This document shows, one piece after another, positions 7,390-57,932 of a stretch of DNA of 64,000 nt (position 1 is its first letter; each line of letters opens with the position of its first letter). A program made the position numbers and the translations under genes. Source of the DNA: Desulfovibrio sp. JY (GTDB lineage: Bacteria > Desulfobacterota > Desulfovibrionia > Desulfovibrionales > Desulfovibrionaceae); assembly GCA_021730285.1 (NCBI GenBank), contig CP082962.1, positions 248,001-312,000 of the forward strand. Reading direction: 5' to 3'. The notes under the pieces were generated by a model. That model had not been told where the DNA came from, did no database searches, and was given only the letters and a program-made list of their open reading frames with translations.

Positions 7390-7549
7390 GGGGGAAACTT
7401 TTCTGTAGAAAAGTTTCCCCCAGGCCCCCTTCCAAAGACTTTTAACGATTACAAAGTATTATCGATACCAATCTGTAATTATTAAAAGTTTTTGGGAGGG
7501 GAGAGCGCGAGAGGGGAAACCCTTTTTCCAAAAAGGGTTCCCCTCTCGC
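7390..7549. terminator. Paired long hairpins between converging genes
   Basis: Hairpin 1 (7390-7421) has a 14-bp stem of the GGGGGAAACTTTTC type with a TGTA loop. Hairpin 2 (7507-7549) has a stem of the GCGAGAGGGGAAACCC type. Between them an AT-rich stretch is bounded by the inverted pair AGACTTTTAA and TTAAAAGTTT. The cassette lies between the converging receiver-Lon and cytochrome b genes and most likely ends transcription in both directions. The same cassette type recurs at 15775-17386 and 28107-28144. Confidence 0.65.
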
Positions 7550-15774: not shown

Positions 15775-15815
15775 GCGAGAGGGGAAACCCTTTAAAAAGG
15801 GTTCTCCCCTCTCGC
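15775..15815. terminator. Long hairpin, left half of split cassette
   Basis: GCGAGAGGGG and CCCCTCTCGC arms enclose an inner AACCCTTTAAAAAGGGTT stem, starting 16 bp after the AhpF-like stop. It is nearly identical to hairpin 2 at 7507-7549. A small perfect hairpin (15843-15857, GGTGCAG arms) follows. Together with 17351-17386 it forms a cassette now split by the IS. Confidence 0.65.
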
Positions 15816-17350: not shown

Positions 17351-17386
17351 CGGGGGGAACCCTTTCTACAGAAAGGGTTCCCCCCG
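17351..17386. terminator. Long hairpin, right half of split cassette
   Basis: A perfect 16-bp stem of the CGGGGGGAACCCTTTC type has a TACA loop, 7 bp from the radical SAM stop. It likely ends that minus-strand gene and, before the IS inserted, paired with 15775-15815 as a two-hairpin cassette. Confidence 0.65.
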
Positions 17387-21226: not shown

Positions 21227-21262
21227 CCAGGGGGAAACTTTTTGAAAAAAGTTTCCCCCTGG
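21227..21262. repeat. GGGGGAAACTTTTT-type hairpin upstream of HerA
   Basis: A long stem (CCAGGGGGAAAC arms) is followed by a CCCCTTCAAAAACTTTCAA tail, as at 28070-28144. Its left flank, GGCCGCCGGAGGC on the minus strand, supplies the GGAGG ribosome site of the HerA gene. Confidence 0.65.
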
Positions 21263-21334: not shown

Positions 21335-21513
21335 ATGCGGCGCTTCGCCGCTGGCGCGGTTGTTGCCGCAATCGCGTCCGGCGTCGAGGCGCAACGCGCC
21401 TCGTGCCGCCGGGCCGATTGCGGCAACAAACAATCCATTCCCACCAGCCCCCGACACCTCCACCCGTCATCCCAACCCGGTAAAGGGGGGTCCGGGGGGC
21501 ATCAAGCCCCCCG
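21335..21513. repeat. 95-nt structured repeat, copy A, with hairpin tail
   Basis: The core (21335-21429) has a 5' hairpin (GCGGCG-CTT-CGCCGC), a perfect 15-bp outer stem (21360-21374 with 21415-21429) and an inner 7-bp stem with a 3-nt loop (21386-21402). A less conserved spacer and a CCGGGGGGC hairpin at about 21492-21513 follow. Copies B and C are at 52123 and 55162. Confidence 0.85.
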
Positions 21514-23688
21514 GTCGGGAGGGTCCGGGAGGGGCGACGCCCCTCCCGGCGCTTCCCCTCCCCCCGCTGCCGCTTCCACCTGCGCCGCCGCCAGGGCCGC
21601 CTCGATGGCGACGGCCAGATCGCGGCGCAAAATAGGCTTGAGGAGCAGGTCGCGGATGCCGATGGCCCGGGCCGCGTCCTTGCTCATGGTCTCGCTGAAT
21701 CCGGTGAGCATGAGCACCGGCAGATCGGGGCGAATGGCCAGGACCTCGCGGGCGAGGTCGGCGCCGGTCAGGCCCGGCATGTTCTGGTCGGTGACCATGA
21801 GGTCGCAGGCTGTGGGATCTTTTTGGATGCGGGCCAGGGCCTGCCGGGGATCGGTTTCGGCCTGGACGGCGTAGCCCAGGGATTCGAGGAGTTCCCGGCC
21901 GATTTCAGCCAGGGCCGGCTCGTCGTCGACGAAGAGCACACGTCCCCGACCCCTGCGGGGCTGGGGTCCGGCGTCCTGGTCCGCCTCGCCGGCATGATCG
22001 GCCAGGGGCAGGTAGACGCTGAAGGTCGCGCCCTGCCCCGGAGCGCTTTCGACCTTGATGTCGCCATTGTACTTGCGCACCACGCCGTGGGCCACGGCCA
22101 GGCCCATGCCCGTGCCCTCGCCGGGTTTCTTCGTGGTGAAAAAGGGGTCGAAAATCCGCTCCTGGATATCGACGGGAATGCCGGGGCCGGTGTCGCGCAC
22201 CCACAGGCGCAGGCAATCGGCGGCCGGCGCGTCGCCGCCGATGGGGCAAAGCCCGCCCAGGCACTCCTCCAGCCCCACTTCGAGCACGCCGCCTGTTTCG
22301 CGCATGGCCTGGGCCGCGTTGCCGCACAGGTTCATGATGATCTGCTGGATCTGGGTGGGCTCGGCCAGGATGGTGTCGCGGCCGGGGCGCACGGCGTCCA
22401 CCAGTTCGATGGAGTTGGGCACGGTGGCCCGGATGAGCTTGAGGGTTTCCTTGACCAGGGGGGCCACGTGCAGGGGCTTGGCCCCTTGTTCGTTCTGGCG
22501 GCTGAAGGAGAGGATCTGGAGCACCAGGTCCCTGGCCCGGCGGCAGGCGGACAGGATATGGTCGACGCGGCGGGCCAGCGGGCTGTCCGGCGGGGCGTCG
22601 CCTTCGATCATCTCGGTAAAGCCCATGATGATGCCGAGGATGTTGTTGAAATCATGGGCGATGCCGCCGGCCAGGGTGCCGATGGCTTCCATCTTCTGGC
22701 TCTGGCGCAGGCGCTGTTCGAGATTCTTGCGTTCGGTGATGTCGTGGGCCACGAACACGGTGCCGATGGGGACGTCATCGGCATGGGACAGCGGCGAGGC
22801 GGTGACGAGAAATTCCCCGTGCAGCCTGGCGATGGCGATCTCCCGGGAATGGTGGCGGCCGTCGGTCATGGCCAGGATTTCCCCGGAGCGTTCGCCGGGC
22901 CGGTCGGGCAGGTCGAAGACGAAGGCGGCCTCGCGGCCGACGACTTCCCGGGGCGACAGGCCCAGGCGGTGGGCCATGGCCAGGTTGAGGCGGCGCACCC
23001 GCCGTTCGCGGTCGATGACCACGACCATGTCCTGGACGGAGTCGAAGATGCCCTCCCACTCCCGCTTGGCCGTGACGATGAGTTTGGTGACGCGTTCGCG
23101 CTCTTCGATTTCCCGGGTGAGCTTGCGGTTGGCGCTGGCCAGGGCGGCGGTGCGCTCGGAAACGAGGGTCTCCAGGTGGCTTTTGAGCGCCGTGAAATCG
23201 CGTTCGGCCCGCCATTTGGCGCACAGGGAGGTGGCGAACTGGCGGATCTCCTGGGAATGGAAGGGCTTTTGGATGTAAAGCAGCTTGTCGGCCGGCGGCA
23301 CCCGGGCGGCGATGCTGGCCGGATCGACGTCGGTGAAGGTGGTGACCACCACGATCTGAACCCAGGGATCGAGGGCCCGTATCTCCTCGGCCGCGAAAAG
23401 ACCGCCGCGCCCGGGCGGCATGTGCACATCCAGGAAGGCGGCGGCATAGGGCCGGCGCTCGCGTTTGGCCGCGACCACGGCCGCCACAGCCTCCTCGCCC
23501 TGGCGGCACAGCGTCAGTTCGAACCGGGGTTCGTCGGATACGGGAGGCGCGCCCCCGAGCCCGTCGAGGCCGCCGAGGATGTCGTCCCGGGGCGCCAGGA
23601 TCTCGGTGAAAAGAGCGAGGATGCGCGGCTCGTCGTCGGCCACCAGCAGGCGCAGGGGCGCGGGTGTCGGTTGGGTGGATGCGGCCAT
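21502..23688 (-). CDS. Hybrid histidine kinase, REC-PAS-HK-REC
   Basis: The ATG at 23688 gives 728 residues; the frame is open further upstream but overlaps the TPR gene. An N-terminal receiver domain (about 12-155) has D87 in FLDVHMPPGRGG. A coiled coil (about 160-205), a PAS domain (about 210-320) and a HisKA domain with H345 in GGIAHDFNNILG follow. The HATPase has N-box NLCGNAAQAM and G-boxes DTGPGIP and GTGMGLAV. A C-terminal receiver has D in LMVTDQNMPG. It would sense and relay a signal by phosphotransfer in the cytoplasm; no membrane segment was seen. It starts 44 bp after the TadD-like TPR gene, suggesting control linked to the Tad pilus. The last about 20 residues are encoded by the hairpin repeat at copy A. 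Confidence 0.92.
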   Translation of the reverse strand: MAASTQPTPAPLRLLVADDEPRILALFTEILAPRDDILGGLDGLGGAPPVSDEPRFELTLCRQGEEAVAAVVAAKRERRPYAAAFLDVHMPPGRGGLFAAEEIRALDPWVQIVVVTTFTDVDPASIAARVPPADKLLYIQKPFHSQEIRQFATSLCAKWRAERDFTALKSHLETLVSERTAALASANRKLTREIEERERVTKLIVTAKREWEGIFDSVQDMVVVIDRERRVRRLNLAMAHRLGLSPREVVGREAAFVFDLPDRPGERSGEILAMTDGRHHSREIAIARLHGEFLVTASPLSHADDVPIGTVFVAHDITERKNLEQRLRQSQKMEAIGTLAGGIAHDFNNILGIIMGFTEMIEGDAPPDSPLARRVDHILSACRRARDLVLQILSFSRQNEQGAKPLHVAPLVKETLKLIRATVPNSIELVDAVRPGRDTILAEPTQIQQIIMNLCGNAAQAMRETGGVLEVGLEECLGGLCPIGGDAPAADCLRLWVRDTGPGIPVDIQERIFDPFFTTKKPGEGTGMGLAVAHGVVRKYNGDIKVESAPGQGATFSVYLPLADHAGEADQDAGPQPRRGRGRVLFVDDEPALAEIGRELLESLGYAVQAETDPRQALARIQKDPTACDLMVTDQNMPGLTGADLAREVLAIRPDLPVLMLTGFSETMSKDAARAIGIRDLLLKPILRRDLAVAIEAALAAAQVEAAAGGGEAPGGASPLPDPPDRGA

Positions 23689-27810: not shown

Positions 27811-28164
27811 CGCCGGGGACGTCCCAAAGGAATCCTGCCCAACCGCTGGTTGGCCGGCCCGGGAGCGGGTGCGGCCGCCACGCGCGGCGCATATTTGAAG
27901 AATACGCCTTCGTGTCCGCCACACCCGTCCCCGGCCCTGTCAACCCATCTCATACCCTTGAGCAATCTCCGCCTGTGACGGCGCCCTGAGCCCATCGCCT
28001 TTTGCCCTTCTCACAAATATTGCATCATTTCCGAAAAATAACGTGTATTTTCAGGCAGCACCGAGTGAAACGCCCCTGCCCCCTTTGAAAGTTTTTGAAA
28101 GGGGGTCCAGGGGGGAAACTTTTTTCAAAAAGTTTCCCCCCTGGCGGCCGTTCGCATTGGAGCA
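27811..28164. terminator. Converging gap with long hairpin at 28107-28144
   Basis: The hairpin has CCAGGGGGGAAAC-type arms around a TTTTTTCAAAAA centre and is preceded by its CCCCCTTTGAAAGTTTTTGAAAGGGGG companion. It lies between the converging pilin operon and the TadC operon and likely stops both. Nothing else was identified in this 354-bp gap. Confidence 0.6.
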
Positions 28165-31915: not shown

Positions 31916-31943
31916 ACTCACGTGGCGTGCCTGCCTCCGGCGG

Positions 31944-32177
31944 CCAGGGGAGGCTCCGCCTCCCCTGGACCCCACCGCCAGAAGGGGCGTTGCCCCTTCT
32001 GGACTTCCCCACCGGGGGGCCGAGGGCCCCCCGGTCCCCCCATATAGGGGGTTAATAACGACCACCATTACAGCCGATGCCGTTTATCTCTACCGTATCC
32101 GCGACATCCCAACAACAACCCCGTCAAAGGGAGCCGGGGGAAATCCCCCCGGGAGGGAGGGGCGACGCCCCTCCCGG
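31944..32177. repeat. Tandem GC-rich hairpins in the tadA leader
   Basis: Three 25-nt perfect hairpins follow each other: 31944-31968, 31978-32002 and 32011-32035. A CCCCC-N6-GGGGG hairpin (32036-32051) follows. Further on are CCGGGGGAAATCCCCCCGG and GGGAGGGG-type hairpins at 32133-32177. The first module is identical to 57850-57874. They lie in the 5' leader of tadA, downstream of cpaE. Confidence 0.8.
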
Positions 32178-50450: not shown

Positions 50451-51836
50451 ATGCCCGCACGTCCCCTCGCCATCGCCCTGGCCGCGATCCTGACCGCCAC
50501 CAGCGCCCTGGCCGCCCAGGCCCCGACCGTGCAGAAATACACGGTCGAGGCCCCCCAATCGACCAATATCCCGGCCCCGGCCAGCCTGGCCAAGGCCTTC
50601 CCGAACGGCTTTCCCCTGGGGCTCGGCTCCGGCGTGGTCTTCGCCGGCAAGGACGCCGACGGCTCCATCGTGCTCTACGCCGTGGGCGATCGCGGCCCCA
50701 ACGCCGACGCGCCCGACTACGTTCCCACCCCCGGGGCCAAGCCCGAACCGGCGAAAATCTTTCCCGCCCCGGGTTACACCCCGTCCCTGGCCAAGCTGCG
50801 CGTCAAGGACGGCAAGGTGGAAGTCCTCGCCATCACGCCGCTTTTGACCGCCGACGGCAAGCCCATCTCCGGCCGCCCCCTGCCCAAAGGCAGCGTGGGC
50901 AGCACCGGCGAAACGCCGCTGGCCGCCGACCTGTCCGTGCTGCCCACGGACACCAACGGCCTGGATACCGAAGGCATCGCCATGGCCCCGGACGGCAGCC
51001 TGTGGCTGTGCGACGAATACGGCCCGTTTCTGGTCCACGTCGATGCCGCCACCGGGAAAATCATCAAGAAATACGGCCCCGGCCAGGGACTGCCCGAAAT
51101 CGTGGCCAAGCGGCAGCCCAACCGCGGCTTCGAAGGCGTGGCCGTGACCAAGGACGGCAAGGTCTTCGCCGCCGTGCAGTCGATCCTCGACGTGGACGGC
51201 AAGGTCAAAGCCTCCAAAGCCCCCTTCATCCGCATCGTGGAGCTCGACCCGGCAACCGGCAAGACCCGCATGTTCGGCTATCCCCTGGACAGCGAAGCCT
51301 ACAAGAAAAACGCCGACGCCAAGCTCGGCGACCTGACCGCCATTTCGCCGACCAAACTCCTCACCGTGGAACAAGGCAAAGGCGTGGATAAAAAGATGCG
51401 CAACATCGTCTACGCCATCGACCTGTCCCAGGCCACGGACCTGACCGGCAAAACCGCCCCCGACGGCAAGCCCCTCGAGACCGTCTCCGACCCGGCCGCG
51501 CTGGAAAAACTCGGCGTCAAACTGGCCCAAAAAACCAAAGTGGCCGACCTGCGCGCCCTGGGCTGGAACGCCGAAAAAGCCGAAGGCCTGTCCATCGCCC
51601 CGGATCACAAGACCCTTATCCTCACCTCGGACAACGACTTCGGCATGACCATCAAGCCGAATAACCCGGTCGCCGACAAGGACGGCAAGCCCGTCAAAAA
51701 GCCCGGCGACTACCAGCTCGCCCCCGGCGGGCAACTGTCCCACGACGGCCAACCCGTCCCCACCACCTTCGTCATCACCCCCACCACCGAAAAAACCGAC
51801 CTCTGGGTCCTCACCCTGCCCGAGGCGGTGCGGTAA
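50451..51836 (+). CDS. Secreted phytase-like esterase family protein
   Basis: The ATG at 50451 follows TAAGGAGCATCCC. A signal peptide ends at ALA-A (residue about 20). The 461-residue product is a beta-propeller-like protein with GLGSGVVFAGKDADGSIVLYAVGDRGPNAD, LDTEGIAMAPDGSLWLCDEYGPF, GFEGVAVTKDGKVFAAVQS and AEGLSIAPDHKTLILTSDNDFG. These match the esterase-like/phytase-like family. Members hydrolyse phosphoesters or carboxyl esters in the periplasm; the real substrate is unknown. It is followed by a repeat-rich converging gap. Confidence 0.82.
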   Translation: MPARPLAIALAAILTATSALAAQAPTVQKYTVEAPQSTNIPAPASLAKAFPNGFPLGLGSGVVFAGKDADGSIVLYAVGDRGPNADAPDYVPTPGAKPEPAKIFPAPGYTPSLAKLRVKDGKVEVLAITPLLTADGKPISGRPLPKGSVGSTGETPLAADLSVLPTDTNGLDTEGIAMAPDGSLWLCDEYGPFLVHVDAATGKIIKKYGPGQGLPEIVAKRQPNRGFEGVAVTKDGKVFAAVQSILDVDGKVKASKAPFIRIVELDPATGKTRMFGYPLDSEAYKKNADAKLGDLTAISPTKLLTVEQGKGVDKKMRNIVYAIDLSQATDLTGKTAPDGKPLETVSDPAALEKLGVKLAQKTKVADLRALGWNAEKAEGLSIAPDHKTLILTSDNDFGMTIKPNNPVADKDGKPVKKPGDYQLAPGGQLSHDGQPVPTTFVITPTTEKTDLWVLTLPEAVR

Positions 51837-51992
51837 ACGGGGAAGAGGCGGGGAGGCGAGCAAGCGGGGGCTCCGCCCCCGCCCCCCCGCCGGGAGGCCA
51901 TGGGCCCCCCGGGCCCCCCATCCGGTGTGCTTTGGCCGGGCGGGAGGCCGGGTTGGCTGGCGGAAAGGCGGAGAGCGGAGAGTGGAGAAGAT

Positions 51993-52061
51993 GCAGGCGG
52001 AATTTGTCGGGACGGTGCATGTCGCTTCGCGACAAGCTCGTCCCAAGCAAATTCCGCCTGC
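51993..52061. repeat. 69-nt long hairpin next to repeat copy B
   Basis: The outer arms GCAGGCGGAATTTG and CAAATTCCGCCTGC are perfectly complementary over 14 bp. Inside them a GGGACG/CGTCCC stem and a terminal GTCGCTTCGCGAC hairpin are present. Thymine-rich termination signals are absent, so it looks like a mobile palindromic element or structured RNA rather than a simple terminator. Confidence 0.7.
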
Positions 52062-52122
52062 ACCACGCCGGTCGCCCCTGCGGGGCGACATTCGGAGAAC
52101 ATCTCTTCTTAATTCTCTTAAA

Positions 52123-52217
52123 ATGCGGCGCTTCGCCGCTGGCGCGGTTGTTGCCGCAATCGTGTCCGGCGTCGAGGCGCAACGCGCCTCGTGCCGCCGG
52201 GCCGATTGCGGCAACAA
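52123..52217. repeat. 95-nt structured repeat, copy B
   Basis: It differs from copy A (21335-21429) at one position in the loop region. All stems are intact. Its hairpin tail (52287-52308) has CCGGAGGGC arms in place of CCGGGGGGC, with the partner base also changed. Confidence 0.85.
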
Positions 52218-52375
52218 AACAGAGGACGTCCCCCCCTGCCGCCCAACCCCATGGCCTCCCACCATCCCAACCCGGAAAAGGGAGGTCCGGAGGGCATAAG
52301 CCCTCCGGCGGGGTCCAGGGGCAGAGCCCCTGGCCGCCGGAGGCACCCCTTCCTCCCCTCCTCCCATTCCCTCGC

Positions 52376-54559
52376 CTATTTCGACGTCATCACCAACACG
52401 CCGTTCCATTCCCCCGCCGGCGGCTCAGCCAGCAACTTCTCGCAGCGCTTGACGTACGAAGCGGCGGCGGGGTCGGTGCCGGCCAAGGCGGTAAAGCCGG
52501 CCAGGGCGGCCTGAAAATCGCCGGAGATGAAGGCGTCCAGGGCGTTGGCGTAGGCATCGTGAGTGGCGGTGAGGGCTGCGGCGGCGGCGGGCCAAAGGGG
52601 TTCGTGGACGTCCACGGGTTCGGCCCGGCCGACCACGGCCACGCGGCCGAGGCGGCGGCTGGCAAAGGCGTCGCCGGCGGCGTCGCGGGTGGCGCTGGAG
52701 ATCATGGTATAGGTGCCGAATTGCTTGTTGATGCCTTCGAGGCGCGAGGCGAGGTTCACGGCGTCGCCGAGCATGGTGTAGTCGAAGCGGGAATCCGAGC
52801 CCATGTTGCCGACGACGGCCGGGCCGGTATTGAGGCCGACGCGCATGTGCAGATCGTGGCCGGAGCGTTCGCGGAAGGCGGGGCGCAGTTCGGTCAGTTT
52901 GTCCTGGCAGCGCAGGGCCGCACGCACGGCCCGGGCGGCGTGGTCCGGCTGGTCGAGGGGCGCGTTCCAGAAAGCGATGATGGCGTCGCCTTCGTATTTG
53001 TCCACGGTGCCGCCTTCCTCCAGGATGATGTCGGTCATGGCGGTGAGGTATTTGTTCAAAAGCGCGGTCAATTCCTGGGGCGTCATGCCTTCGGAGATGC
53101 CGGTGAAGCCCTGGAGGTCGGAGAAGAAGATGGTCAGTTCGCGCAGTTCGCCGCCGAGGCTCATGCGCTCGGGGTGGGCAATGAGCGCCTCGATGACGTC
53201 GGGGCTCAGGTATTGGCGGAAAGCGGATTTGATGAAGCGTTTCTGGCGGCCCTCGGTGGCGTAGCCGATGAGCACGGCGGTAACGAGGGAGCCGGCCACG
53301 GCCAGTTGCGGCAGGGCCAGGGGCAGCCAGCTTCCCAGGGCGTAGGCGGCCAGGGCGATGAGGATCGGCAGGGGCAGGAAGAGGATGATGACGCCCGCGC
53401 CGGCCATGGCCCCGGTGGTCAGGGTCACGGCCAGCCCGGCGGCCACGGCAAGGGCCCCGGCCAGCCACCAGCCGGCCCAGTGGGGGATGACGTGCAGGAA
53501 ATCGCCGGTCAGCAGACTTTGCAAGGTCTGGGCATGAATTTCCACGCCCGAGGTGACGCCGGCCACGGGCGAGGGACGCAGATCGAGCAGTCCCGGGGCG
53601 GAAAAGCCGAAGAGCACGTAGCGGCCCTTGAACATGTTCGGATCGAGGTCGGGCTTGCCGCCTTCGAGCAAGGTCAGCTCACTGCGGATGACCGCCGCCG
53701 CGGACACGGCCGGGAAATCCGACGAGCGCCGCCAGCGGGGGATGGCCCGGCCGGCGTCGTCGAGGGGCACGGTGACCGGCCCCAGGCGCAGGGAATGGCC
53801 GGCGATGGCGGCGTCGAGGTTGGGCTCGGCCAGCATGCGGGCGGCAAGGGGCAGCGACGGCACGGCCTTGCCGTCGAAGAGGCCGAAGAGGTTCACCCGG
53901 CGGTAGATGCCGTCGAATTCCGGGTCCTGGCTGACGTTGCCGAGGATTTTCGCCCCGGCCGCCACTTCGGGCACGGGAAAGGCGGCCTTGGGATAGATCG
54001 GGGCTTCGCTTGGCGGCACCTTGGCCAGCCAGGATTTGAGGCCCTTGATGACCAGGGGATCGGGCGGCACGTCGGCCGGCCAGACGTTCGTCTTGCCTGA
54101 CTCGCGCCCCAGAAAGACCGGCAGCACGAAGTTGCCCAGCCGCTTGCCAGCCGCCGCGAAGGCCGTGTCGTCGGCCACGCCGTAGGTCGAGGGCTCGGTG
54201 TAGAGCACGTCGAAGGCCACGGCCTTGGCTCCGCCGCGCCGGCAGAAATCCAGAATCGCGCCGTAGACCTCGCGCGGCCAGGGCCAGGACAGGCCGTTTT
54301 CCTTGGCTGCCCAGTCGAGGCTGGCCTGATCCAGGAGAATCAGCCGCACCGCGTCCGAACCGCCGTCCCGGGGCGTGAGCAACCGGGCCCGCCAGTCGAA
54401 GGTGCGCGCCTCGAACGAGGTCACGATGCCGGTCAGGGACAGCAGCCAGGCCGCCGTGAGCCCGACCACCCCGGCCATGACGCCGAAAAGGATGCGCTTG
54501 CGAAAGGCGGCCGCGCCGCCGGAACCGCCCTCTTTCGCGGGGGAAACCGTCTGTTGCAC
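52376..54559 (-). CDS. CHASE2 adenylate/guanylate cyclase
   Basis: The likely start is a GTG at 54559 after AAAAGGAACACAGGC; a TTG at 54577 overlapping the previous stop is the alternative. The 727-residue product has an N-terminal membrane helix, an extracytoplasmic CHASE2 domain (about 45-325: LLDQASLDWAAKENGLSWPWPREVYG, AVAFDVLYTEPS), three helices (about 340-430) and a class III cyclase domain (about 470-640). The metal-binding Asp residues are in FFSDLQGFTGISEGM and YEGDAIIAFWNAPLD, followed by GLNTGPAVVGNMGSDSRFDYTMLGDAVNLA. It probably makes cAMP in response to an external signal. Confidence 0.93.
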   Translation of the reverse strand: MQQTVSPAKEGGSGGAAAFRKRILFGVMAGVVGLTAAWLLSLTGIVTSFEARTFDWRARLLTPRDGGSDAVRLILLDQASLDWAAKENGLSWPWPREVYGAILDFCRRGGAKAVAFDVLYTEPSTYGVADDTAFAAAGKRLGNFVLPVFLGRESGKTNVWPADVPPDPLVIKGLKSWLAKVPPSEAPIYPKAAFPVPEVAAGAKILGNVSQDPEFDGIYRRVNLFGLFDGKAVPSLPLAARMLAEPNLDAAIAGHSLRLGPVTVPLDDAGRAIPRWRRSSDFPAVSAAAVIRSELTLLEGGKPDLDPNMFKGRYVLFGFSAPGLLDLRPSPVAGVTSGVEIHAQTLQSLLTGDFLHVIPHWAGWWLAGALAVAAGLAVTLTTGAMAGAGVIILFLPLPILIALAAYALGSWLPLALPQLAVAGSLVTAVLIGYATEGRQKRFIKSAFRQYLSPDVIEALIAHPERMSLGGELRELTIFFSDLQGFTGISEGMTPQELTALLNKYLTAMTDIILEEGGTVDKYEGDAIIAFWNAPLDQPDHAARAVRAALRCQDKLTELRPAFRERSGHDLHMRVGLNTGPAVVGNMGSDSRFDYTMLGDAVNLASRLEGINKQFGTYTMISSATRDAAGDAFASRRLGRVAVVGRAEPVDVHEPLWPAAAAALTATHDAYANALDAFISGDFQAALAGFTALAGTDPAAASYVKRCEKLLAEPPAGEWNGVLVMTSK

Positions 54560-55161: not shown

Positions 55162-55256
55162 ATGCGGCGCTTCGCCGCTGGCGCGGTTGTCGCCGCAATC
55201 GCGTCCGGCGTCGGGAAGCGCAGCTTCTCGTGCCGCCGGGCCGATTGCGGCGACAA
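55162..55256. repeat. 95-nt structured repeat, copy C
   Basis: This copy carries compensating changes relative to A and B: outer stem TTGTCGCC/GGCGACAA instead of TTGTTGCC/GGCAACAA, and inner stem GGGAAGC-GCA-GCTTCTC instead of GAGGCGC-AAC-GCGCCTC. It lies in a 321-bp gap (55111-55431) between the DUF2726 and M48 genes. Confidence 0.85.
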
Positions 55257-55431: not shown

Positions 55432-56349
55432 TTAGATATTCCCCAACGCCGCCTTGAACCGGGCCACGCGCGCCGGGGGCTCGTTGATCTCGGCCACCCG
55501 GGCCAGATTGGCCAGCTCGTGGATGCGATCGGACGGCGCGGGGTGCGTCTTGGCGAAGTCCGCGCCGCCGGGGGTGAGGCGCTTTTGCATCGCTTCCAGC
55601 ATGTCCGGCAACCCGGAGGGGTTGTAGCCGGTGCGGACGAGGATGGTGACGGCGGCCTTGTCGGCTTCGTATTCCAGGGTGCGGGAGTAGCCGTTGTTGA
55701 CCATGGTGGTCATGATGTCGCCGATGGAGTCCGCGAAGATGTTGGTCAGGCGGGCCACGTCCGCGCCGCCGGCCTGCTTGAGGGCCTCGCCGCCGATGAT
55801 GGCCAAGGCCTCGGTGGTGCGGGCGCGCTTGATGGCGCGCAGGGCGTCCTTGTGCTCCACGTGGGCGACCTCGTGGGCCAGTACGGCGGCCAGGGCGTTT
55901 TCGCCGGAACAGCAGCGCAGCATGCCGCGCGTGATGAAGACGAGTCCGCCCGGCGCGGCAAAGGCGTTGATCTCGGTGGAGTCGATGATGAGGAAGTGGT
56001 AGCCGCCGTAGGTCTGGGGCATGTCGGAGAACATGGCCAGGGACTGTCCCACTTCGTTGACGTAGGCATTGGCCTTGGCGTCGCGGTAGGGATGGTATTT
56101 GGTCAGAAGCGACGCGCCGACAGCCCGGCCGATGTAGTATTCCTGCTCGGGTGTGAAGTCCTCGGCGGCGTGGGCCACGGCCTTGACGCTTTTGACGGCC
56201 GAGGCGGCATAGTCGCCGACCGGCGCGCCGCCGACGCTCGCGCCGAAGGAATCGAGGACCCGGGAAAGTCCTTCGGGGTTGTTGCAGCCGTAGAGCGCGA
56301 AGCCGAACACGAGCAGCCCGGCCAGGGAAAGAAGGATACGCGACCTCAT
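55432..56349 (-). CDS. M48 family metalloprotease, lipoprotein
   Basis: This 305-residue protein has a lipobox FALYGC (Cys near residue 22). The M48 domain has the zinc motif HEVAH in AAVLAHEVAHVEHKDAL (about 160-175) and a downstream EYEADKAAV that supplies the third ligand. A C-terminal HPAPSDRIHELA matches the family. Such proteases (LoiP/BepA/YcaL type) process or degrade outer-membrane proteins in the periplasm. It is translationally coupled to the SH3 protein gene (four-base overlap), so the two probably work together. Confidence 0.93.
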   Translation of the reverse strand: MRSRILLSLAGLLVFGFALYGCNNPEGLSRVLDSFGASVGGAPVGDYAASAVKSVKAVAHAAEDFTPEQEYYIGRAVGASLLTKYHPYRDAKANAYVNEVGQSLAMFSDMPQTYGGYHFLIIDSTEINAFAAPGGLVFITRGMLRCCSGENALAAVLAHEVAHVEHKDALRAIKRARTTEALAIIGGEALKQAGGADVARLTNIFADSIGDIMTTMVNNGYSRTLEYEADKAAVTILVRTGYNPSGLPDMLEAMQKRLTPGGADFAKTHPAPSDRIHELANLARVAEINEPPARVARFKAALGNI

Positions 56350-57815: not shown

Positions 57816-57849
57816 AGGGTGTCCTTTTGGGTGTGGAGGCCTCCGGCGG

Positions 57850-57923
57850 CCAGGGGAGGCTCCGCCTCCCCTGGACCCCACCGCCGGGGGACCGAGGGCC
57901 CCCCGGTCCCCCCAACTAGGGGG
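57850..57923. repeat. GC-rich hairpin modules between hyi and garR
   Basis: 57850-57874 is identical to 31944-31968. It is followed by CCGGGGG/CCCCCCGG arms and a CCCCC-AACTA-GGGGG hairpin, the same series as at 31944-32051 but without the middle module. On the minus strand it ends in GGCCGCCGGAGGC upstream of garR. Confidence 0.8.
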
Positions 57924-57932
57924 ACAATGGGG

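Follow-up and report, generated by a model that had tools for sequence, protein, structure and literature searches.

A 64,000-nucleotide stretch of contig CP082962.1 of Desulfovibrio sp. JY (positions 248,001 to 312,000; here called the window) carries a structured repeat of 95 nt whose copies differ by paired changes in their stems, which raises the question of what kind of element this is and what keeps its fold. The first-pass annotation, made from the sequence alone, listed three copies and offered an RNA element, a REP-like palindrome copied as a fold, and a chromosome-organising site as possible answers. All three copies are present on the plus strand at the positions given there. Compared with copy A over 96 nt, copy B is 99% and copy C is 89% identical. 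Each copy folds into a 6-bp hairpin plus a 15-bp outer, an 8-bp middle, and an 8-bp inner stem with a 3-nt loop, so that the outer stem and the loop stand as described, and the inner stem, previously given as 7 bp, comes out one pair longer. The plus-strand folds have z-scores of -5.5 to -6.3, and none of 200 shuffles folds as well. Sequence comparison bears out the T-A to C-G change in the outer stem of copy C; the G-C to A-T, C-G to A-T, and A-T to G-T changes in its inner hairpin are likewise real, and compensated changes in this hairpin are also seen against the ortholog in another genome of the genus, G011. Copies B and C also have the G-C to A-T change that was described for the tail hairpin downstream. 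A reversed unit immediately upstream of copy B had been missed. The features of the window referred to below are as follows.

21335-21429, plus strand: copy A (first hairpin, HP1, 21337-21351; spacer, 21352-21359; palindrome, PAL1, 21360-21429)
21502-23688, minus strand: hybrid histidine kinase/response regulator gene (Pfam), whose 3' end is followed by copy A, 73 nt from stop to element
50451-51836, plus strand: left convergent gene of copy B, phytase-like esterase domain (Pfam, PF13449)
51920-51990, minus strand: mirror tract outside PAL2, C-rich and G-poor on this strand (composition)
51991-52091, minus strand: element 2, the reversed unit of like architecture (PAL2, 51997-52057; spacer; HP2, 52071-52089; found by model R1 and the PAL2 pattern)
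52092-52122, no strand: A/T-rich spacer between the two hairpins of the copy B dimer (sequence)
52123-52217, plus strand: copy B (HP1, 52125-52139; PAL1, 52148-52217)
52218-52277, plus strand: C-rich, G-poor tract outside PAL1 of copy B, putatively rut-like (sequence; composition over all copies)
52287-52308, no strand: GC hairpin adjoining the C-rich tract, the tail hairpin of the first-pass annotation (sequence)
52376-54559, minus strand: right convergent gene of copy B, CHASE2 and adenylate/guanylate cyclase (Pfam)
55162-55256, plus strand: copy C (HP1, 55164-55178; PAL1, 55187-55256)
55432-56349, minus strand: peptidase M48 gene (Pfam), whose 3' end is followed by copy C, 176 nt from stop to element

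All six neighbouring genes in the window match Pfam families. Copy A is a solo unit flanked by two minus-strand genes. Read in the plus direction, the unit consists of a pyrimidine-rich stretch, HP1 (a 15-nt hairpin, GCGGCG-CTT-CGCCGC, with a 6-bp stem), a spacer (TGGCGC..), PAL1, a C-rich tract, and GC hairpins. Across all 123 palindromes collected, PAL1 is 66 to 80 nt long with arms of 13 to 28 bp. A small protein gene starting from the HP1 ATG was considered and rejected, as spacers of 4 or 5 nt and loops of 3 or 4 nt shift the frame between copies (by eye). No tRNA was found in the window. Integron attC sites have the consensus outer R boxes RYYYAAC ... GTTRRRY and come with an integron integrase; the PAL1 stems, 97 of 123 of which begin with TTG or GTG and end with CAA or CAC, do not fit these boxes by eye, and this identification was dropped as well.

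The count of three copies holds for the window, but the whole genome, which belongs to the genus Solidesulfovibrio (G000; 4.69 Mb, one contig), contains at least 42, found by the start pattern (T/C)GCGGCGCTTCGCCGC(T/C)GGC; 41 of these carry the palindrome and one has lost it. With 23 copies on the plus strand and 19 on the minus strand, and with an orientation that tracks the 3' ends of genes, the family gives no support to the idea of a chromosome-organising site. The covariance model R1, for which ten genomes supplied 30 element-1 copies, has matches in 13 of the 14 Solidesulfovibrio genomes, including three (G002, G009, and G011) that contributed no sequence to the model, and in none of the 45 other genomes of the same family or order. 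The best reading is that the family is specific to Solidesulfovibrio. The R1 counts are lower bounds, because at most 70 first-look candidates per genome were scored, with strict filters, and they may take in reversed units and opposite-strand matches of one palindrome. The HP1 sequence is exact in 137 of 139 copies, an invariance that is partly a matter of ascertainment because the copies were collected by an HP1 pattern and R1 finds more (24 versus 2 matches in G005, 24 versus 5 in G010, and 17 versus 1 in G013).

An exact 22-mer occurs in 53 stretches, 6 of which come from unrelated organisms, with one match each, and are taken as chance; one of the six, L100, is found at the extreme end of its contig and may represent contamination. 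Twelve Sinorhizobium records, each with a 23-bp match, were considered as plasmid relatives and are likewise taken as chance. In the metagenome assembly G009, many HP1 copies lie 40 to 90 nt from contig ends (e.g., L093, L101, L109, and L112), where the repeats probably broke the assembly. No published account of these elements was found among the matches listed for repeats of Desulfovibrio magneticus/Solidesulfovibrio and for termination in Desulfovibrio, a set of titles and abstract beginnings with few subscription papers.

Upstream of 22 of the 42 copies in G000 there is a second palindrome, PAL2, with an 8-bp hairpin of its own, HP2, in reversed orientation. Although R1 was built from element-1 copies only, it matches element 2 at 51991-52091 over its full length (E value of 1e-6), and such full-length, opposite-orientation matches lie beside HP1 copies at the copy B site and at 21 more sites in the fetched G000 stretches; these pairs are therefore head-to-head dimers. 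Sites between convergent genes usually have this reversed unit as well, and copy B is accordingly the right half of such a dimer, with C-rich, G-poor tracts on both outer sides. The HP2 pattern, which is narrow, has 23 hits in G000, all adjoining an HP1, one of them beside a damaged unit. The dimer at L141:8078-8240 (G000) has lost most of its PAL1. Element 2 is not a strict partner of element 1: R1 finds one solo element 2 in the fetched G000 stretches (L171:8004-8102), and at least five places in G011 match only the element-2 side of a dimer query. In a separate arrangement, L267 (G006) has tandem HP1 hairpins at about 2404 and 2472, some 68 nt apart, with a palindrome only after the second.

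The position of these units relative to genes, which were called by a crude codon-score finder of our own, is strongly biased. The gene to the right of PAL1 runs toward the element in 38 of 42 copies in G000 (P = 6e-8 versus one half), in 42 of 46 in G011, and in 42 of 50 called copies in the other nine genomes fetched, where the 8 exceptions have two neighbours that are both read from HP1 toward PAL1. Of the 132 copies with both neighbours called, none is flanked by divergent genes, G000 and G011 sharing many of these sites. Among gaps of at least 150 nt in the fetched G000 stretches, which had been chosen for their elements, an HP1 element is found in 0 of 52 divergent gaps versus 42 of 109 others (Fisher P = 4e-9), namely, in 23 of 43 convergent and 19 of 66 tandem gaps, while a majority of the eligible gaps (67 of 109) have none. 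Within the window alone, none of the 6 divergent gaps has an element, as against 1 of 4 convergent and 2 of 8 tandem ones. Elements in G000 lie 54 to 223 nt past the stop codon of the gene that they face. Where PAL2 is present upstream, the left gene also ends at the site in 21 of 22 copies, versus 6 of 20 without it (P = 1e-5), and 14 of the 20 solo copies are antisense to both neighbours.

The outer sides of the units also have a distinctive composition. In the first 40 nt to the right of PAL1, 41 G000 copies have 47 to 54% C and 13 to 20% G, and in the first 40 nt to the left of PAL2, 22 copies have 54 to 55% C and 5 to 17% G, versus 25 to 36% C and 24 to 35% G at 48 control 3' ends. This excess of C over G stands out in G000, G011, and G003; in G001 and the single-copy genomes it is less marked (44 to 53% C and 21 to 30% G).

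Other repeats were noticed in the window. A second dispersed palindrome family, D2 (GGGGAAAC..TTTTT..AAAAA..GTTTCCCC), is found in the window at 7391-7420, 7514-7543, 15780-15809, 17354-17383, 21230-21259, and 28111-28140, and D2-like sequences lie upstream of many solo element-1 copies. At 31924-32056 and 57830-57928, modular GC hairpins (GGCCAGGGGAGGCTCCGCCTCCCCTGGACCCC...CCGGGGGACC) are repeated near gene ends (D6 and D12).

The paired changes hold up in larger alignments, both of the copies of G000 itself and of those from two other genomes. Among 41 G000 copies, 39 of them distinct, two-sided changes affect 8 of 37 pairs, pairing holds in 99.3% of cells, and none of 500 shuffles reaches any of five covariation measures. 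In G003 and G001 (24 of the 26 palindrome-bearing copies, leaving out the inverted L222 as well as L227, which is identical to L226), 18 of 38 pairs are changed on both sides, in 105 cells, and the covariation score is 0.337, where shuffles give 0.081 and slid controls no more than 0.068. Twelve copies from seven other genomes behave likewise, with covariation in 18 of 28 predicted pairs; all these pair counts are not counts of events, because related copies inflate them.

The same alignments contain footprints of copying at the level of DNA. In the outer stem of the G003/G001 set, wobble pairs make up only 4 of 552 cells and unpaired positions 6, though 105 are changed on both sides, and many of the two-sided changes are swaps of G-C for C-G. 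L222 and L225, two copies from the same genome, have interiors that are exact reverse complements of each other (28 of 28 nt, versus 16 of 28 in direct comparison), and the PAL2 interior of L185 in G011 is inverted relative to its ortholog at 331111 (38 of 41 versus 31 of 43). An asymmetric bulge is gone in 5 of the 85 G000/G011 copies, whose arms pair over 20 to 23 bp, three without and two with one non-Watson-Crick pair; as two of the five (752266 and L203) are orthologs, this amounts to at most four events. One of the bulge-less copies, 1323430, has the loop AAA, versus TTT in its ortholog. Arm homogenisation with spacer inversion (PMC8604942) and multi-base compensatory change with loop inversion (PMC8794818) are described as footprints of polymerase template switching; arm homogenisation, multi-pair change, and spacer inversion are all found here.

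There are also signs of a preferred strand. The HP1-to-PAL1 strand, which is antisense to the gene that PAL1 follows, folds better in 116 of 123 PAL1 copies from 11 genomes; the copies are related, and the binomial test of this preference overstates it. For PAL2 the preference is unsteady (12:10 in G000, 20:10 in G011, and 1:6 in G003). In 30 ortholog pairs, one-sided changes outnumber kept two-sided ones (31 versus 7), and on the HP1-to-PAL1 strand the one-sided changes lean to G.U over A.C (19:7, P = 0.03), which suggests that ordinary compensation under selection contributes too. Together, the rare wobbles, the inverted interiors, and the complementary arms suggest that DNA template switching is probably the main means by which pairing is kept and that a degree of strand-specific selection is added to it, both processes being at work. 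Because the footprints of DNA copying explain the covariation at least partly, covariation alone is not evidence of RNA function here. The suggestion of an RNA element thus keeps its support from the better-folding strand and loses, at least in part, its support from covariation.

Comparison of orthologous sites shows how the palindromes change. Of the 42 sites in G000, 33 have an element at the matching place in G011, 30 of them by both flanks (46 G011 copies were fetched). In the 27 G000/G011 pairs with both flanks and both palindromes, the palindromes differ by 0.058 between orthologs and 0.101 between cross pairs, and the next 60 nt differ by 0.194 and 0.437, respectively. The true ortholog is unbeaten among the 27 G011 candidates in only 9 of 27 cases when judged by the palindrome, versus 18 of 27 by the flank, a disparity that points to exchange between copies within a species. 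Four G000 sites (269335, which is copy A of the window, 931233, 2858287, and 3903029) are matched by both flanks in more distant genomes; there the 15-nt HP1 is identical, and the palindromes differ widely yet stay paired, as in the same-site pair of TTGTCGCCGCAATCG in G000 and TTGGGGGCGCAATTTCGGGCAACG in G004/G008.

Palindromes are also frequently lost, being missing from 7 of 21 copies in G003, 3 of 15 in G001 (one cut by a contig end), 2 of 5 in G010, 2 of 46 in G011, 1 of 2 in G006, and 1 of 42 in G000. The locus 1657806 has an element in G000, a half-deleted copy in G011, and short spacers in G003, G010, and a piece of G001, a pattern that can be read as a gain in the lineage of G000 and G011 or as repeated loss; no target duplication can be made out. 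Its matches in G004 and G008 (L293/L294) have the same two flanking genes and a different long palindrome, GGGGCAGCGAATCGCCCGG..., in which the two genomes differ in one arm. The copy B dimer is absent from the matching place in G011, a gap that may be a deletion, as its junction lies in sequence common to both flanking hairpins. In G003, L226 and L227 lie on one contig in opposite orientation, and the identity of both the element and the near flanks makes them probably a recent duplication of a larger piece.

Our best explanation, which we hold only slightly more likely than not, is that of a REP/BIME-like repeat at gene 3' ends, without a RAYT, maintained by template switching and perhaps serving as a two-way barrier to transcripts. 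Its observed part comprises where the units lie and which way they point, their dimer architecture, the covariation, and the sequence traces of corrected arms and inverted interiors. The unit sits past stop codons, either by itself behind a single gene or paired head-to-head where two genes converge. During replication, the palindrome could template its own repair, one arm being rewritten from the other and the interior now and then flipped; such repair would keep the stems matched while the sequence drifts, and exchange between copies would homogenise the palindromes within a species. A transcript that exits the intergenic region and enters the next gene in antisense would present the hairpin cluster and, emerging next, the tract with more C than G. 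A C-rich, G-poor composition is the general character of rut sites, and on that ground Rho may load at these tracts. The two could form a barrier at gene ends in both directions, by pausing or termination, perhaps Rho-assisted, and/or by protection of 3' ends, and would keep transcripts from an antisense run into the neighbouring gene. The better fold of PAL1 on the strand antisense to the gene that it follows counts against the explanation as a whole, as do the frequent palindrome loss, the irregular T run after HP1, the one-sided stem changes, the weaker C excess in some genomes, and the many eligible gaps with no element; within it, this antisense fold suits the blocking of incoming antisense transcripts better than sense termination. 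The places with solo element 2 and the eight orientation exceptions slightly lower our confidence.

Among the alternatives, a non-autonomous mobile palindrome (REPIN- or MITE-like), whose Y1/HUH or other transposase has been lost or escapes recognition and for which gene ends are simply tolerated insertion sites, survives best, though we consider it unlikely. It would account for the many near-identical copies, for the locus 1657806 with its filled, half-deleted, and short-spacer states, and for the copy B dimer missing from G011. It could also account for the preferred strand of PAL1, since hairpins of single-strand transposases have a preferred strand. However, PF01797 (Y1_Tnp) has no match in G000 itself, on which ground a RAYT-linked REP was rejected and the linked RAYT-type transposase that the first-pass annotation had proposed looking for is not supported; nor is it found in the copy-bearing genomes G002 (69% complete), G006, G009, and G010. 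Eight of the 14 genus genomes are positive for Y1_Tnp, and its presence has no evident relation to copy number. In addition, no clean insertion site or target duplication was found at the copy B locus in G011 or at locus 1657806, the former gap being open to explanation by deletion, and the orientation relative to genes is strongly biased.

A structured RNA, either small or antisense, read from HP1 to PAL1 and covarying through selection on its fold, appears quite improbable. The better-folding strand, the lean of one-sided changes to G.U, and the strong covariation all agree with it, but no Rfam 15 family reaches its gathering threshold in the window, a consensus scan reveals no sigma-70-like promoter near copies B and C, the long-term stems have few wobble pairs, loops and palindromes are lost or replaced, and most solo copies are antisense to both neighbours. 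That the units are intrinsic terminators or mRNA 3'-end stabilisers of an ordinary sort, REP-type stabilisers included, and are repeated by coincidence is the least credible reading, and very improbable: distances past the stop, solo or paired placement to suit the gene arrangement, and hairpin clusters near the stops at copies A, B, and C (such clusters figure in termination; PMC8355165) speak for it, but the T run after HP1 in the sense direction occurs only in some copies (CATTTTAAGAA in some and CATGGAAGA in others, by eye), so that HP1 is not a canonical intrinsic terminator, the better fold is on the wrong strand, and most eligible gaps in the fetched G000 stretches have no element.

Returning to the proposed template-switched 3'-end repeat, a more far-reaching version of it, which we put forward tentatively and with considerable doubt, is that the long palindromes across the genus may be rewritten as wholes by DNA copying within and between sites with no recognised transposase, so that at the same gene end species come to have entirely different, though still paired, palindromes while the HP1 address and the preferred strand are kept. 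If true, this would be a self-templating repeat system in which covariation is mostly a product of mutation and which does strand-specific work at gene ends. An RNA is ordinarily judged functional above all by its covariation; because very strong covariation coexists here with direct template-switch footprints, the family is naturally suited to testing how far mutation by itself can produce covariation. It is also a REP-like population without a recognised RAYT, and its matching sites across the genus let copying, loss, and replacement be traced.

Of the classes first proposed, the REP-like palindrome copied as a fold proves the best for this family, which resembles BIMEs in the broad sense, being made of dispersed extragenic palindromes at gene 3' ends, solo or head-to-head. 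Di Nocera and colleagues place REPs mostly downstream of genes, between unidirectional and convergent ones, and often in head-to-head dimers (PMC3733652). The elements described here share with the REP/BIME and REPIN elements of the GTAG super-family, which go with RAYT transposases (PMC3733652; PMC3116915), their dispersed extragenic position, downstream location, and frequent head-to-head dimers. In contrast to REPs of 20 to 40 bp (PMC3733652), PAL1 is 66 to 80 nt long with arms of 13 to 28 bp. The unit also differs from REPs and REPINs in having two parts, a short hairpin and a variable palindrome, in lacking a GTAG tag, and in the absence of a Y1 transposase from the genome; only 4 of 123 copies have GTAG, on either strand, in the spacer or within the 10 nt that precede HP1 or follow PAL1. 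CGTC REPs, which are described as having no transposase, are similar in the lack of a dedicated transposase and in the predominance of head-to-head dimers, but have a CGTC (or TGTC/CCTC) tag, an 8- to 9-bp stem, and a CCA tail (PMC3733652), whereas the HP1 stem is 6 bp and the PAL1 arms are 13 to 28 bp. CGTC within 10 nt after PAL1 is found in 27 of 123 copies on the HP1-to-PAL1 strand and in 18 on the other and is not a consistent tag.

Like the hairpins maintained by template switching (PMC8794818; PMC8604942), these palindromes combine multi-base compensation, arm homogenisation, and loop or spacer inversion. Those hairpins were scored in RNA genes and yeast coding DNA, whereas here the inversions, of 28 and 41 nt, are in a dispersed intergenic family. 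Finally, the Ype, Efa, ERIC, NEMIS, and Bor repeats are intergenic stem-loop elements, several of them near gene 3' ends (PMC1590033); compared by their description in the available part of that source, which does not give palindrome turnover at conserved sites for them, the Solidesulfovibrio family differs in showing it. The kind of element is thus an already known one, REP/BIME-like, and what is new is the long, variable, and converted palindromes.
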